Positions 58,105-62,000 of a DNA stretch of 64,000 nt are shown here, piece by piece. Both the position numbers and the translations under genes were made by a program. The notes under the pieces were generated by a model. It was given only the letters and a program-made list of their open reading frames with translations. It was not told the DNA's origin and made no database searches. Every line of letters starts with the position of its first letter. The first letter of the stretch is position 1. The stretch comes from Bacteroidetes bacterium RIFCSPLOWO2_12_FULL_37_12 (GTDB taxonomy: Bacteria; Bacteroidota; Bacteroidia; 2-12-FULL-37-12). The DNA lies in NCBI GenBank assembly GCA_001769655.1, contig MEPC01000020.1, positions 1-64,000 on the forward strand, in the 5' to 3' direction.

Positions 58105-58168
58105 AGGGGTATAGAGGTATAGGGGTATAGGGGTATAAGGGTATAAGGGTATAAGGGTATAAGGGTAT
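58105..58168. repeat. octamer tandem repeat (x8) abutting the LysM gene start
   Basis: Eight 8-bp units ARGGGTAT (variants AGGGGTAT, AGAGGTAT, AAGGGTAT) run without a break. One base separates the array from the start codon of the minus-strand LysM gene, so it replaces the usual ribosome-site region. Three to four copies of the same unit stand in the same place before the glycosyltransferase gene (61823). Confidence 0.85.
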
Positions 58169-58181
58169 AAATAATTGAAAT

Positions 58182-58271: not shown

Positions 58272-58312
58272 TACCGATTTTCTACTTTTTTCACCTATCG
58301 GTTCTTAATTTA

Positions 58313-58361
58313 CCAATTTCTAATAACCAATTACTAATTACTAATTTCTAATCTCTCTATC
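58313..58361. repeat. heptamer tandem repeat (x7) ending at the yifB start
   Basis: Seven 7-bp units of the type CTAATTA (CCAATTT, CTAATAA, CCAATTA, CTAATTA, CTAATTT, CTAATCT, CTCTATC) run in unbroken phase to the base before the ATG at 58362. The last unit is degenerate. Confidence 0.75.
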
Positions 58362-59963
58362 ATGAAAAACTTCTTCCAACAGTTGGAGTCAGAAGACGAG
58401 GGTCCTGTACTCACAGCCAATCTTGTAAAAACGTATGCTTCAACCGTCTATGGAGTAAATGCAATTCCCATCACCATTGAAGTAGCGGCAAGCAATGGTT
58501 TCAGAACCTACATTGTGGGACTTCCCGATGTGGCAGTGCGCGAAAGTGTTCACCGGATAAAAACTGCATTAATATCTGCAGGATTAACTTGGCCTAAACA
58601 AAGAATTGTAGTAAACATGGCGCCTGCAGATTTACGGAAAGAGGGATCAGCTTACGACCTGACACTTGCCTTAGCCATATTAGCCGCCGCTGGAAGCATA
58701 TCTGCAGAATTAATGGAACAGTATGTGATAATGGGAGAACTTTCATTAGACGGAAATGTTCAACCCATAAAAGGTTGCTTGCCTATTGCCATTCAGGCAA
58801 AAAAAGAAGGACTCAAAGGAATAATTGTACCGGCGTCAAATGCCCGGGAAGCGGCGGTTGTTGATGGAATAGATGTGTATGGAGTTGAGTCATTAAAAGA
58901 AGCCGTTGACATTATCAATAAAGAATCATCCAAATCACCAATCAAAGTAAACAGCGTTGAGCAATTTGTAAACACCTGTGATAAATACGAGGCAGATTTT
59001 TCGGATGTCCAGGGACAGGAAAACATAAAACGGGCGTTGGAAATTTCAGCCGCAGGGGGTCATAACGTAATTTTAATAGGACCTCCGGGTTCCGGTAAAA
59101 CCATGCTAGCAAAACGTCTTCCCTCTATACTTCCCCCAATGACACTGCAGGAAGCGTTGGAAACCACTAAAATTCATTCGGTAGCTGGCAGAATTTCAAA
59201 GCACGGATCTTTGATTACACGCCGCCCGTTTCGTTCGCCCCATCATACCATAAGTGATGTGGCGTTGGTGGGCGGTGGTGGCATTCCTCAGCCAGGAGAA
59301 ATATCGCTGGCACATAACGGAGTTTTATTTTTAGATGAATTACCTGAATTTAAACGGACAGTGCTGGAGGTAATGAGACAACCCCTCGAGGAGAGAAAAG
59401 TTACGATTAGCCGTGCCAGGGTTTCAGTGGATTTTCCTGCTAATTTCATGTTGGTGGCATCCATGAATCCCTGTCCGTGCGGGTTTTATAACCATCCTGA
59501 AAAAAGATGCGTCTGTCGTCAGGGAATGGTGCAACAATATTTGAACCGGATCAGCGGTCCTTTGCTCGACCGCATAGACATTCATGTAGAAGTGACACCG
59601 GTTTCATTTAACGAAATGACTTCCCAGAGGAAAAATGAGAGAAGCGTTGACGTACGCCAACGGGTGCAAAAAGCAAGGGAAATTCAAAAGAAAAGATTTT
59701 ATGAACTTAAACTTCCGCAGGTTTATTCCAATGCGATGATGAGTCCATCCTTAGTTCAGGAAATTTGTCAGACGGATGAATCCGGTAAGAAAATGTTGAA
59801 GAATGCGATGGAAAAAATGAATTTATCGGCAAGGGCATTTGACCGCATACTGAAAGTTTCGAGAACGATTGCAGATCTTTCCTGTTGCGAAAATATCCAT
59901 CCTGAACATTTAGCGGAAGCCATCCATTACAGGAATTTAGACAGGGATAATTGGGCGGGGTGA
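58362..59963 (+). CDS. YifB/ComM-family Mg-chelatase-like AAA+ ATPase
   Basis: The 533-residue protein has an N-terminal Lon-protease-like fold domain (about 20-190), the Mg-chelatase ChlI-type AAA+ core with Walker A GPPGSGKTM at about 240 and Walker B VLFLDELPEF at about 320, a Cys-rich stretch (MNPCPCGFYNHPEKRCVC) and the C-terminal helical domain. In naturally transformable bacteria the ComM relative is a helicase for branch migration of incoming DNA; the role in this phylum is less clear. It has its own promoter and a heptamer-repeat leader. Confidence 0.92.
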   Translation: MKNFFQQLESEDEGPVLTANLVKTYASTVYGVNAIPITIEVAASNGFRTYIVGLPDVAVRESVHRIKTALISAGLTWPKQRIVVNMAPADLRKEGSAYDLTLALAILAAAGSISAELMEQYVIMGELSLDGNVQPIKGCLPIAIQAKKEGLKGIIVPASNAREAAVVDGIDVYGVESLKEAVDIINKESSKSPIKVNSVEQFVNTCDKYEADFSDVQGQENIKRALEISAAGGHNVILIGPPGSGKTMLAKRLPSILPPMTLQEALETTKIHSVAGRISKHGSLITRRPFRSPHHTISDVALVGGGGIPQPGEISLAHNGVLFLDELPEFKRTVLEVMRQPLEERKVTISRARVSVDFPANFMLVASMNPCPCGFYNHPEKRCVCRQGMVQQYLNRISGPLLDRIDIHVEVTPVSFNEMTSQRKNERSVDVRQRVQKAREIQKKRFYELKLPQVYSNAMMSPSLVQEICQTDESGKKMLKNAMEKMNLSARAFDRILKVSRTIADLSCCENIHPEHLAEAIHYRNLDRDNWAG

Positions 59964-59990
59964 TGGTGGGGGGGAAGGGAGCCCTGAGTA

Positions 59991-60438
59991 AAACCTAATC
60001 CGTAAACCTAAACCTAATCCGTAAACCTAAACCTAATCCGTAAACCTAAACCTAATCCGTAAACCTAATCCGTAAACCTAATCCGTAAACCTAATTCGTA
60101 AACTTAAACCTAAACCTAATCCTAATCCGTAAACCTAATCCTAATCCGTAAACCTAATCCTAATCCGTAAACCTAATCCGTAAACCTAAACCTAATCCTA
60201 ATCCGTAATCCTAATCCGTAAACCTAATCCGTAAACCTAATCCGTAAACCTAATCCTAATCCTAATCCGTAAACCTAATCCTAATCCGTAATCCTAATCC
60301 GTAATCCTAATCCGTAATCCTAATCCGTAAACCTAATCCGTAAACCTAATCCTAATCCTTAAACCTAATCCTAATCCGTAATCCTAATCCGTAATCCTAA
60401 TCCGTAAACCTAAACCTAATCCTTAAACCTAATCCTAA
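59991..60438. repeat. AATCCGT/AAACCT mosaic repeat array (about 450 bp)
   Basis: The entire gap between yifB and the four-helix-bundle gene is built of three short words, AATCCGT (7 bp), AAACCT and AATCCT (6 bp), most often paired as the 13-bp unit AATCCGTAAACCT, in irregular higher-order order. It stops 7 bases before the ATG at 60446. The same 13-bp unit occurs in inverse orientation behind the gene (60811-60978). Confidence 0.9.
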
Positions 60439-60445
60439 TTTTAAT

Positions 60446-60805
60446 ATGAAAAAACCAAGATTTAATCACGAAAAACTTGAAGTTTATCAGAGATCCCTGA
60501 AATTTATTACATGGTTGACTGAGGTCATTGATGCCTTAAGCAGAGGGAACGGAAATATAATTGATCAAATTGATCGTGCATCAATATCTGTTGTGCTCAA
60601 CATTGCAGAAGGAAATGGAAAACATTCAAGCAAAGAACATAAAAGATATATTGAAACTGCTAAAAGTTCTGCTCTTGAATGCGCTGCTGCTCTTGACATA
60701 ATGTTCGCTAAAAAATTAATTGATGAGCAAAAATCAGAAGAAGGAAAAGAAATGACAGAGGTGATGGTAAAGATGCTTTACAAGTTAGGCGAAAGTTTGT
60801 TGTAA
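60446..60805 (+). CDS. four-helix-bundle protein (23S rRNA intervening-sequence / Avd-like family)
   Basis: A 119-residue, all-helical protein with the family hallmarks: KLEVYQRSLKFITWLTEVI, QIDRASISVVLNIAEGNGK and the later IETAKSSALECAAALDI. Members of this family are encoded in insertions in 23S rRNA genes and, as the Avd branch, assist reverse transcriptases of diversity-generating retroelements. Here it is a free-standing gene lying between two inverted arrays of the same 13-bp repeat. No rRNA or reverse transcriptase is nearby. Its role is unknown. Confidence 0.85.
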   Translation: MKKPRFNHEKLEVYQRSLKFITWLTEVIDALSRGNGNIIDQIDRASISVVLNIAEGNGKHSSKEHKRYIETAKSSALECAAALDIMFAKKLIDEQKSEEGKEMTEVMVKMLYKLGESLL

Positions 60806-60810
60806 TGTTA

Positions 60811-60978
60811 GAAGGAAAACAGAATAGGATTACGGATTAGGTTTACGGATTAGGTTTACGGATTAGGAAAACAAATTAGGAAAACAGATTAGGAAAACAG
60901 ATTAGGAAAACAGATTAGGAAAACAGATTAGGAAAACAGATTAGGAAAACAGATTAGGAAAACAGATAAAGAAAACAG
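60811..60978. repeat. 13-bp tandem repeat (x13), inverse of the left array at its start
   Basis: Thirteen units of 13 bp: a few ATTAGGTTTACGG (exact reverse complement of the left array unit) followed by ATTAGGAAAACAG copies. It begins 6 bases after the stop of the four-helix-bundle gene. The remaining 47 bases to the glycosyltransferase stop show nothing further. Confidence 0.9.
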
Positions 60979-61025
60979 AACACCCTATACCCCAATTGCG
61001 CCACCTCCTCAAGCAATACGTAACT

Positions 61026-61823
61026 TTACCCAATAATTTCTATTCCTCTTAAGCAACGGATGTTGTGCTCTTTTTGTTTTTTATGGAGTAATTCAAAATT
61101 GTATCTGACCATTTCTTCCGAATAACTTTTGGGATGATATAAATGATAAACAATTGATTTATTTTTCATTGATTTAGTTTTAATACCATTCTCTTTAAGC
61201 CGCCATTCTATATCAACATCTTCACCCACACCGGCAAAAATATAATCCATATCAAATCCATTTACATCCATCAATGACTTTTTACCTATTCCCCAATTTC
61301 TCCCAACTAATCCTCTTCCGTCCTTTTTAATACTAAGCGAAAACAAGGGGGAATAAATTCCGTCCTTGATCATTTTAGAATCAGAAAAAAGTAAAGAAAA
61401 AAAATTCAACTTTTTCAACGATTGTTTTTGTATTATCCATTCCGAAATATTCTTACCAAGCAGAACAGCCCTTCCCTCATAAATATAACCTTCCTGGATA
61501 TTTTTAAGATAGTTATTTACAAAATGTTTGTGAGGCAGACAATCGCCATCAATAAAAACCATCTTATTGGTTTTTGAATGGATGATAGATTTATTTAACA
61601 TTTCATTTTTTCTAAATCCCTTATCTTCCTTTTGATAAATGTGCGTAATGGGAAAATTAAATAACATTCTATTCTTTGAAAGAAATTCAAAGGTCTCTTC
61701 ATTATAATCATCTTCGGATAATATGACTTCAAAATTTTTATTGCTTTGCCGGGCTAATGCCCTTAAAATCAATCTCAACTTATCTAATGCCTTGTAATAG
61801 GATATTATTACGGATAATTCCAT
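61026..61823 (-). CDS. family 2 (GT-A) glycosyltransferase
   Basis: The start is set at the ATG at 61823 (265 residues): it gives the expected MELSVIISYY beginning, while the longer frame to 61880 only translates repeat sequence. GT-A features: the N-terminal nucleotide-sugar strand, SEDDYNE, the metal-binding FIDGDCLPH at about 95 and the later GVGEDVDIEWRL with its Glu-Asp acidic pair. No membrane segment, so it is cytoplasmic. Sugar and acceptor are unknown; probably cell-surface polysaccharide. Octamer repeat units stand directly before the start codon, as at the longer LysM gene. Confidence 0.88.
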   Translation of the reverse strand: MELSVIISYYKALDKLRLILRALARQSNKNFEVILSEDDYNEETFEFLSKNRMLFNFPITHIYQKEDKGFRKNEMLNKSIIHSKTNKMVFIDGDCLPHKHFVNNYLKNIQEGYIYEGRAVLLGKNISEWIIQKQSLKKLNFFSLLFSDSKMIKDGIYSPLFSLSIKKDGRGLVGRNWGIGKKSLMDVNGFDMDYIFAGVGEDVDIEWRLKENGIKTKSMKNKSIVYHLYHPKSYSEEMVRYNFELLHKKQKEHNIRCLRGIEIIG

Positions 61824-61853: not shown

Positions 61854-61876
61854 AAATTTAGTTCTAATTCTCAATA

Positions 61877-61974
61877 CCAAATGCTCAATACCAAATGCTC
61901 AATGCCAAATGCCCAATGCCAAATGCTCAATGTCAAATGCTCAATGTCAAATGCTCAATGCCAAATGCTCAATG
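61877..61974. repeat. 14-bp tandem repeat (x7) between mutase and glycosyltransferase
   Basis: Seven 14-bp units CCAAATGCTCAATG with few changes; each can be split in two related 7-bp halves (CCAAATG, CTCAATG). Related words (CAATGTCC, CAATGCCTAATTA) continue to the mutase stop and also occur at 22880-22915. Confidence 0.85.
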
Positions 61975-62000
61975 TCCAATGACTAATTCTCAATGCCTAA

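Follow-up and report, generated by a model that had tools for sequence, protein, structure and literature searches.

Genes for S23/IVP proteins and arrays of short heptamer repeats have both long been on record in bacteria, without a known role for either. S23/IVP open reading frames (ORFs) are carried by intervening sequences (IVSs) of 23S rRNA, as in Leptospira and Coxiella, and rRNA IVSs are removed by RNase III (PMC4990558). The protein family, PF05635, resembles Avd of diversity-generating retroelements (DGRs) (PMC10053308), and heptanucleotide repeats have been reported in Calothrix PCC 7601 (PMC4692102). Here, we analyze a 64,000-nucleotide stretch of Bacteroidetes bacterium RIFCSPLOWO2_12_FULL_37_12 (contig MEPC01000020.1, positions 1 to 64,000; here called the window), in which a single S23/IVP gene stands between two inverted arrays of short repeats. 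We consider it probable that this locus is a small IVS-like mobile stem-loop element, one four-helix gene inside two inverted arrays, whose protein recognizes its own arms; a heptad rule found in its relatives joins the two long-recorded features. We found no description of the array-gene-array arrangement in the open-access literature. Whereas the protein family, the rRNA IVSs, and the cyanobacterial heptamers are known, we did not find the array-gene-array element, the heptad rule, or the joint insertion described, and this widespread kind of small mobile element is apparently undescribed.

An S23/IVP gene between inverted repeat arrays

The gene (60446 to 60805, forward strand) is preceded by a left arm (59994 to 60439, forward strand) and followed by a right arm in the opposite orientation that starts with TAGGATTACGGATTAGGTTTACGG at 60825 and ends at 60979. 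By unit decomposition, the left arm consists of CCTAAT hexamers interspersed with CCGTAAA heptamers, together with CCTAAA units, arranged as the 13-mer AATCCGTAAACCT and as 19-mers. Tandem Repeats Finder (TRF) scored it at 503 for period 19 and at 476 for period 13, and the exact 13-mer occurs in it 17 times. The proximal right arm (60825 to 60867, reverse strand) is built of TAGGATTACGGATTAGGTTTACGGATTAGGTTTACGGATTAGG, the reverse complement of the left unit, with exact reverse complements of the 13-mer at 60839 to 60851 and 60852 to 60864. In the distal right arm (60868 to 60979, reverse strand), the units have drifted to AGGAAAACAGATT, an amplification present on the right side only; for 60813 to 60979, TRF reported 12.8 copies of period 13 with a 91% match. 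This layout agrees with the earlier note on this DNA, made from the letters alone, which described a gene between inverted arrays. The exact 13-mer has no occurrence outside the locus in the whole 3.94-Mb genome, and the 13-mer pattern read backwards had 0 matches.

Among 339 ORFs (464 kb of the genome), the window gene ranked first for inverted 8-mers common to both flanks (44, compared to a mean of 0.98). Treated as an RNA duplex, the arms have a predicted strength of −151 kcal/mol, and the ORF would be enclosed by the loop that this long stem closes, so the large stem-loop that the note envisaged is possible. The element is placed between a comM-like gene and a glycosyltransferase gene, outside any 23S or 16S rRNA helix, and an Rfam search of 59900 to 61050 gave no match at E values of up to 1. 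Its insertion site is on the 3′ side of the upstream neighbor (58362 to 59963, forward strand), presumably a YifB/ComM-like Mg-chelatase ATPase.

The encoded protein (119 amino acids) matches PF05635 (23S_rRNA_IVP; E = 5e-22; 78.5 bits against a cutoff of 33.8) and the NCBIfam model TIGR02436 (E = 1e-19; 70.8 bits against a cutoff of 24). Its AlphaFold model has four helices (pLDDT, 92.5). The top fold matches are Xcc0516 (2gsc; query-normalized TM score, 0.84 to 0.89) and BT_0352 (2rld), entries with five chains each, followed by Avd of a DGR (4dwl; TM score, 0.78); the DGR ribonucleoprotein is also similar. The link to IVS and Avd proteins that had been suspected from the sequence is thus sound, with the protein nearer to 2gsc and 2rld than to Avd both in sequence and in fold.

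Arms follow the gene

All six PF05635 genes of this genome have inverted arms, and the unit is different in each; the arm pairs of the other copies include AGAAGGGG/CTCCCCTT, CATTGTTT/AACAATGA, and ATGGTTAA/TAACCATC. We surveyed 98 PF05635 genes from genomes of the same class for 8-mers within 150 nt of the gene. On average, the two flanks shared 7.27 inverted 8-mers; the direct orientation gave 1.49, and flanks paired with those of other loci gave 0.52. Of the loci, 61% scored above the 95th percentile of such mismatched pairs. The homologs, next to which the earlier note had suggested looking for arrays, thus have them. Units are mostly 7 bp long, with octamers in several copies of this genome and a mixture of 6 and 7 bp at the window locus; the period-7 signal is also found in the whole class set. 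A scan of viral contigs with a hand-written consensus query returned one locus. Several four-helix genes may stand within a few kilobases, as at L057 (G009) and at L055 (G028), where the set lies around the suf operon.

We then compared arms between elements at unrelated sites, with flanking genes lacking homology. In 36 pairs whose proteins were at least 60% identical, the shared fraction of arm 6-mers was 0.174 when both arms were read in the same orientation and 0.000 when one was reversed, and label permutation gave a null value of 0.011, with 0 of 5,000 permutations as high; the 36 pairs are not independent, because a few clades give several pairs each. Same-genome pairs with less than 50% protein identity had 0.009 of their arm 6-mers in common, which rules out one genome-wide unit common to all copies. 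Matched arms form stronger predicted RNA duplexes than mismatched arms (median, −49.6 versus −33.6 kcal/mol), and among the suf orthologs alone, the arm pairs covary only in part, with the own arm ranking first in 5 of 8 rows. The four-helix gene itself is under purifying selection (dN/dS of 0.056 between the orthologs L021 and L049) and, where both neighbors were scored, is never antisense to both.

A heptad rule in two protein clades

A profile of one clade (A1) yielded 80 named loci; clade 1 comprises 77 loci. Most hosts are Bacteroidota, Ignavibacterium and Chlorobiaceae among them, while Calditrichaceae, Caldithrix, and Cloacimonadota contribute one member each. In clade 1, the upstream arms repeat the core CA[AG]T plus three bases that are free to vary (N3) at a spacing of 7, mirrored downstream; 142 core-pair distances were 7, while 3 were 6 and 6 were 8. 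The upstream strand has 1.84 core pairs per locus and the other strand 0.18, and CA[AG]T-N3 arrays are present in 69 of the 77 loci and almost never in other clades. The N3 bases vary between loci and match between the arms (agreement of 0.513 versus 0.163 when shuffled). Clade 2 (69 loci) instead has [AG]TTA plus three free bases; the motif was found in 44 of its loci, with an N3 agreement between arms of 0.833 versus 0.179 when shuffled.

One rule holds in both clades: a 7-bp unit, a clade-specific core of about 4 nt, about 3 nt that vary by locus and are matched between arms, and a strand fixed relative to the gene. The single 13-bp repeat that had been singled out in the window is real at that locus but is not a signature of the family, because the unit is locus specific and only the core is clade specific.

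Filled and empty sites

Presence and absence of the element at otherwise identical sites were seen in relatives, on cyanobacterial plasmids and between sufB and sufC, and not for the window copy. A comparison of Trichormus variabilis plasmid C with Nostoc linckia plasmid2 (98.7% flank identity) revealed a 423-bp arm-gene-arm insertion plus a 5-bp GTAAT direct repeat. In Nostoc ATCC 53789, a related element lies between TTCTA repeats in pNsp_a and pNsp_c is empty, a near-exact case read by eye, for which the script had no anchor. The sufB-sufC gap holds the element in some genomes, only 15 to 55 bp in others, and a gene-free hairpin of another type in a few, and a single genus (congeners of G036) can include both filled and empty sites. 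No arms are present at the empty sites, either in the near-identical plasmids or at sufB-sufC. These comparisons show that, in relatives, the arms and the gene behave as a single mobile unit, acquired and lost together in the gaps between genes. The earlier note had seen a unit in the array-gene-array layout and had asked whether array and gene move together.

Other plasmid comparisons were less readable. No clean junction was found for L420 versus L423 or for L401 versus L409, and for Anabaena L402 versus L421 (99.2% flank identity), the cas6-cas4 gap of the relative holds unrelated sequence with no readable junction. L408 is a truncated copy, and L418 is a gene-free hairpin whose arms are those of the full element at the same plasmid site in a relative. 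The Calothrix NIES-22 plasmid pair L398/L405 was rejected as a new jump, the plasmid backbones being related. Of 10 cyanobacterial S23/four-helix loci read on named plasmids, 8 have clear inverted heptamer arrays (e.g., GGGAGTA, GGGTGTA, and GGGAACA); L399 has no clear arrays. Four-helix genes lie between cas6 and cas4 at L397 (Pseudanabaena plasmid) and L402 (Anabaena plasmid), a placement that may be behind the CRISPR association listed for the family (PMC10910872). At the comM-like site, no four-helix gene was found just downstream in 29 other loci examined; in the relative L293, a distant four-helix relative with different arms occupies the site that corresponds to that of the window element.

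Alternative explanations

Several observations weigh against a mobile element with a protein that reads its own arms. The PF05635 gene is the only ORF of the element, in which no nuclease, transposase, or reverse transcriptase motifs were found. The best homolog of the window copy is only 37% identical, and no near-identical empty site was found among the relatives compared, so the mobility of this copy is inferred from its relatives. About 40% of the loci in the class survey stay at or below the mismatched-pair threshold, and the cyanobacterial copy L397 has direct rather than inverted arms. Target-site duplications, which the earlier note had proposed to look for, came to two of 5 bp, one clean (GTAAT) and one near clean (TTCTA); the other sites are unclear, with a 3-bp overlap or a remodeled gap. 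Finally, three features suggest that the protein binds the repeat core, namely that this core is specific to the clade, that its spacing is strict, and that homologs form rings, but core specificity could come from joint inheritance of arms and gene instead of binding.

The arms might instead be a regulatory RNA device, an explanation that we regard as rather unlikely. Here, a ring resembling the trp RNA-binding attenuation protein (TRAP) would sit on the heptads of its own mRNA and control its own and its neighbors' expression, and the genes would have spread by ordinary horizontal transfer and recombination. The core-plus-spacer register with its strict 7-nt period and the toroidal homologs fit this idea, as does the sense orientation of the genes in operons: among 97 genes with two scored neighbors, 78 were codirectional with both (+,+) and 0 were antisense to both (−,−), against a background of 29 of 328 (8.8%) antisense to both (P ≈ 2e-5 for the codirectional/antisense split). 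An insertion that is exact and bears a direct repeat of 5 bp, the many unrelated sites, and the range of 0 to 23 PF05635 copies per genome argue for mobility instead. The regulatory and mobile-element readings are in part compatible.

It is unlikely that slippage and template switching had already made the arrays as intergenic hairpins and that the four-helix gene merely inserts at their apex, just as IVSs replace helix tetraloops in rRNA (PMC4990558). Such an origin would suit the gene-free inverted-array hairpins that are common in the same genome and the paralogous copies that can be aligned from ATG to stop only. However, it is largely refuted by the arm-free empty sites in near-identical plasmids and at sufB-sufC, and the unit tracks the protein clade over sites and genomes with its strand fixed. 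The arm-free sites also rule out a landing pad, with arms first and the gene later.

We give very little credence to an Avd-type accessory of a DGR or of another reverse transcriptase system. The fold is like that of Avd, a four-helix bundle that forms a pentamer, and of the DGR ribonucleoprotein, in line with the published resemblance between PF05635 and Avd (PMC10053308). However, a profile search of the incomplete assembly of this genome for the reverse transcriptase family PF00078 gave 0 matches (DGR template and variable repeats were not searched for), and 2gsc and 2rld are closer than Avd. The DGR involvement that the earlier note had entertained is thus not supported. Chance low-complexity sequence or an assembly artifact, which a 43-contig draft and the abundance of short intergenic arrays might bring to mind, is refuted by the first rank of the window gene and by the recurrence of this anatomy across several phyla, both in isolates and on complete plasmids.

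Gene-free arrays and a second gene family

Arrays without a four-helix gene are found in the window and beyond. Eight copies of GGGTATAA (58107 to 58170) and a TTACTAA-type array (58312 to 58352) lie 3 to 9 bases upstream of the starts of two divergent window genes, and such start-proximal arrays are frequent in this genome. An eight-copy AATGCTCAATGCCA array (61862 to 61996) stands between a glycosyltransferase gene and a methylmalonyl-CoA-mutase-like gene with no four-helix gene. In this genome (G000), a gene-free inverted-array hairpin on C24 (103483 to 103695; L121) with ATTGTTTC/AACAATGA has the same unit as L010, one of the genome's four-helix elements, and C20 has two more, with GGGTATAA (130248 to 130412; L109) and CGCAAAG/CTTTGCG (222171 to 222400; L113). 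An IS200-like transposase gene on C20 (127437 to 127889; L109) lies between hairpins like the repetitive extragenic palindromes (REPs) and has the joint second-highest inverted-flank score among the scored genes. The earlier note had held that the same repeats without the gene would speak against a unit. In a weak sense these exist, similar arrays occurring as gene-free hairpins, that of L418 among them. The exact 13-mer is found nowhere else, and the homologs do have repeats. Remnants of such elements may make up many of the intergenic hairpins that lack a gene in Bacteroidota and cyanobacteria.

GxxExxY genes (PF13366, PDDEXK_3; L126 to L155) are flanked by strand-biased CACAGAG, CGCAGAG, and CACATAG repeats. 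Upstream units of the CACAGAG/CGCAGAG type number 1.63 per locus on one strand versus 0.43 on the other, about tenfold above four-helix loci. These genes may be a second cargo family of similar design; as their mean inverted score (5.5) is not above the direct score, we treat this as a lead and not as a firm result.

Proposed mechanism and implications

For a mobile element of this kind, we picture a pentameric ring like those of 2gsc, 2rld, and Avd that would bind the cores of one repeat after another, each subunit perhaps taking one core, in the manner of TRAP on RNA. Rings on both arms could mark the ends of the element in single-stranded or hairpin form. The element might spread by insertion at a staggered cut, which an enzyme of the host or one acting in trans would make and which would leave about 5 bp. 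In transcripts, the arms would pair, and by analogy with rRNA IVSs, an RNase III-type cut could free the host mRNA of the element, so that operons could tolerate it. Slippage is the probable source of new repeats, and the arms may be kept alike by mutual copying or by selection for pairing.

The heptad rule predicts which protein binds which heptad and that arms are needed in cis for movement. The element would also explain why four-helix genes turn up within operons, suf, nrd, and cas6-cas4 among them. The same question of insertion arises for rRNA IVSs, the insertion mode being absent from the IVS papers that we compared.

Comparison with known systems

Elements made of REPs or bacterial interspersed mosaic elements (BIMEs) with REP-associated tyrosine transposases (RAYTs; IS200-like), and miniature inverted-repeat transposable elements, likewise combine a coding element that has its own inverted ends with gene-free hairpins of the same type. 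Unlike those, the elements described here have no HUH/Y1 transposase, carry arrays with variable positions, and encode a helical-bundle protein. For TRAP, the proposed likeness is that of a ring protein contacting short cores at regular intervals, with spacers that vary, whereas the folds are unrelated.

The 23S rRNA IVSs share with the present elements the protein family, a single ORF in a stem-loop, location in a transcribed region, and a size of about 0.4 kb (428 nt in Coxiella compared to the 423-bp plasmid insertion). The present elements differ in lying between protein genes, in having arms that are tandem arrays with a clade-specific core, and in that their presence and absence can be seen directly on plasmids. 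The cyanobacterial heptanucleotide repeats, which we take to be the short tandemly repeated repetitive (STRR) sequences, offer a further parallel: heptamers such as GGGAGTA, GGGTGTA, and GGGAACA form inverted arrays around S23 genes in Nostoc, Calothrix, and relatives, but in the STRR literature that we compared, no gene is tied to the heptamers. We propose that STRRs generally represent either arms of S23 elements or what remains of them. More tentatively, these comparisons may point to a distinct class of mobile elements that would encode no known transposase, integrase, or reverse transcriptase, in which a ring protein would read the core in the arrays at both ends while the other positions of the unit evolve freely but in step between the arms, and of which the rRNA IVSs and cyanobacterial heptamers would be members or remnants.
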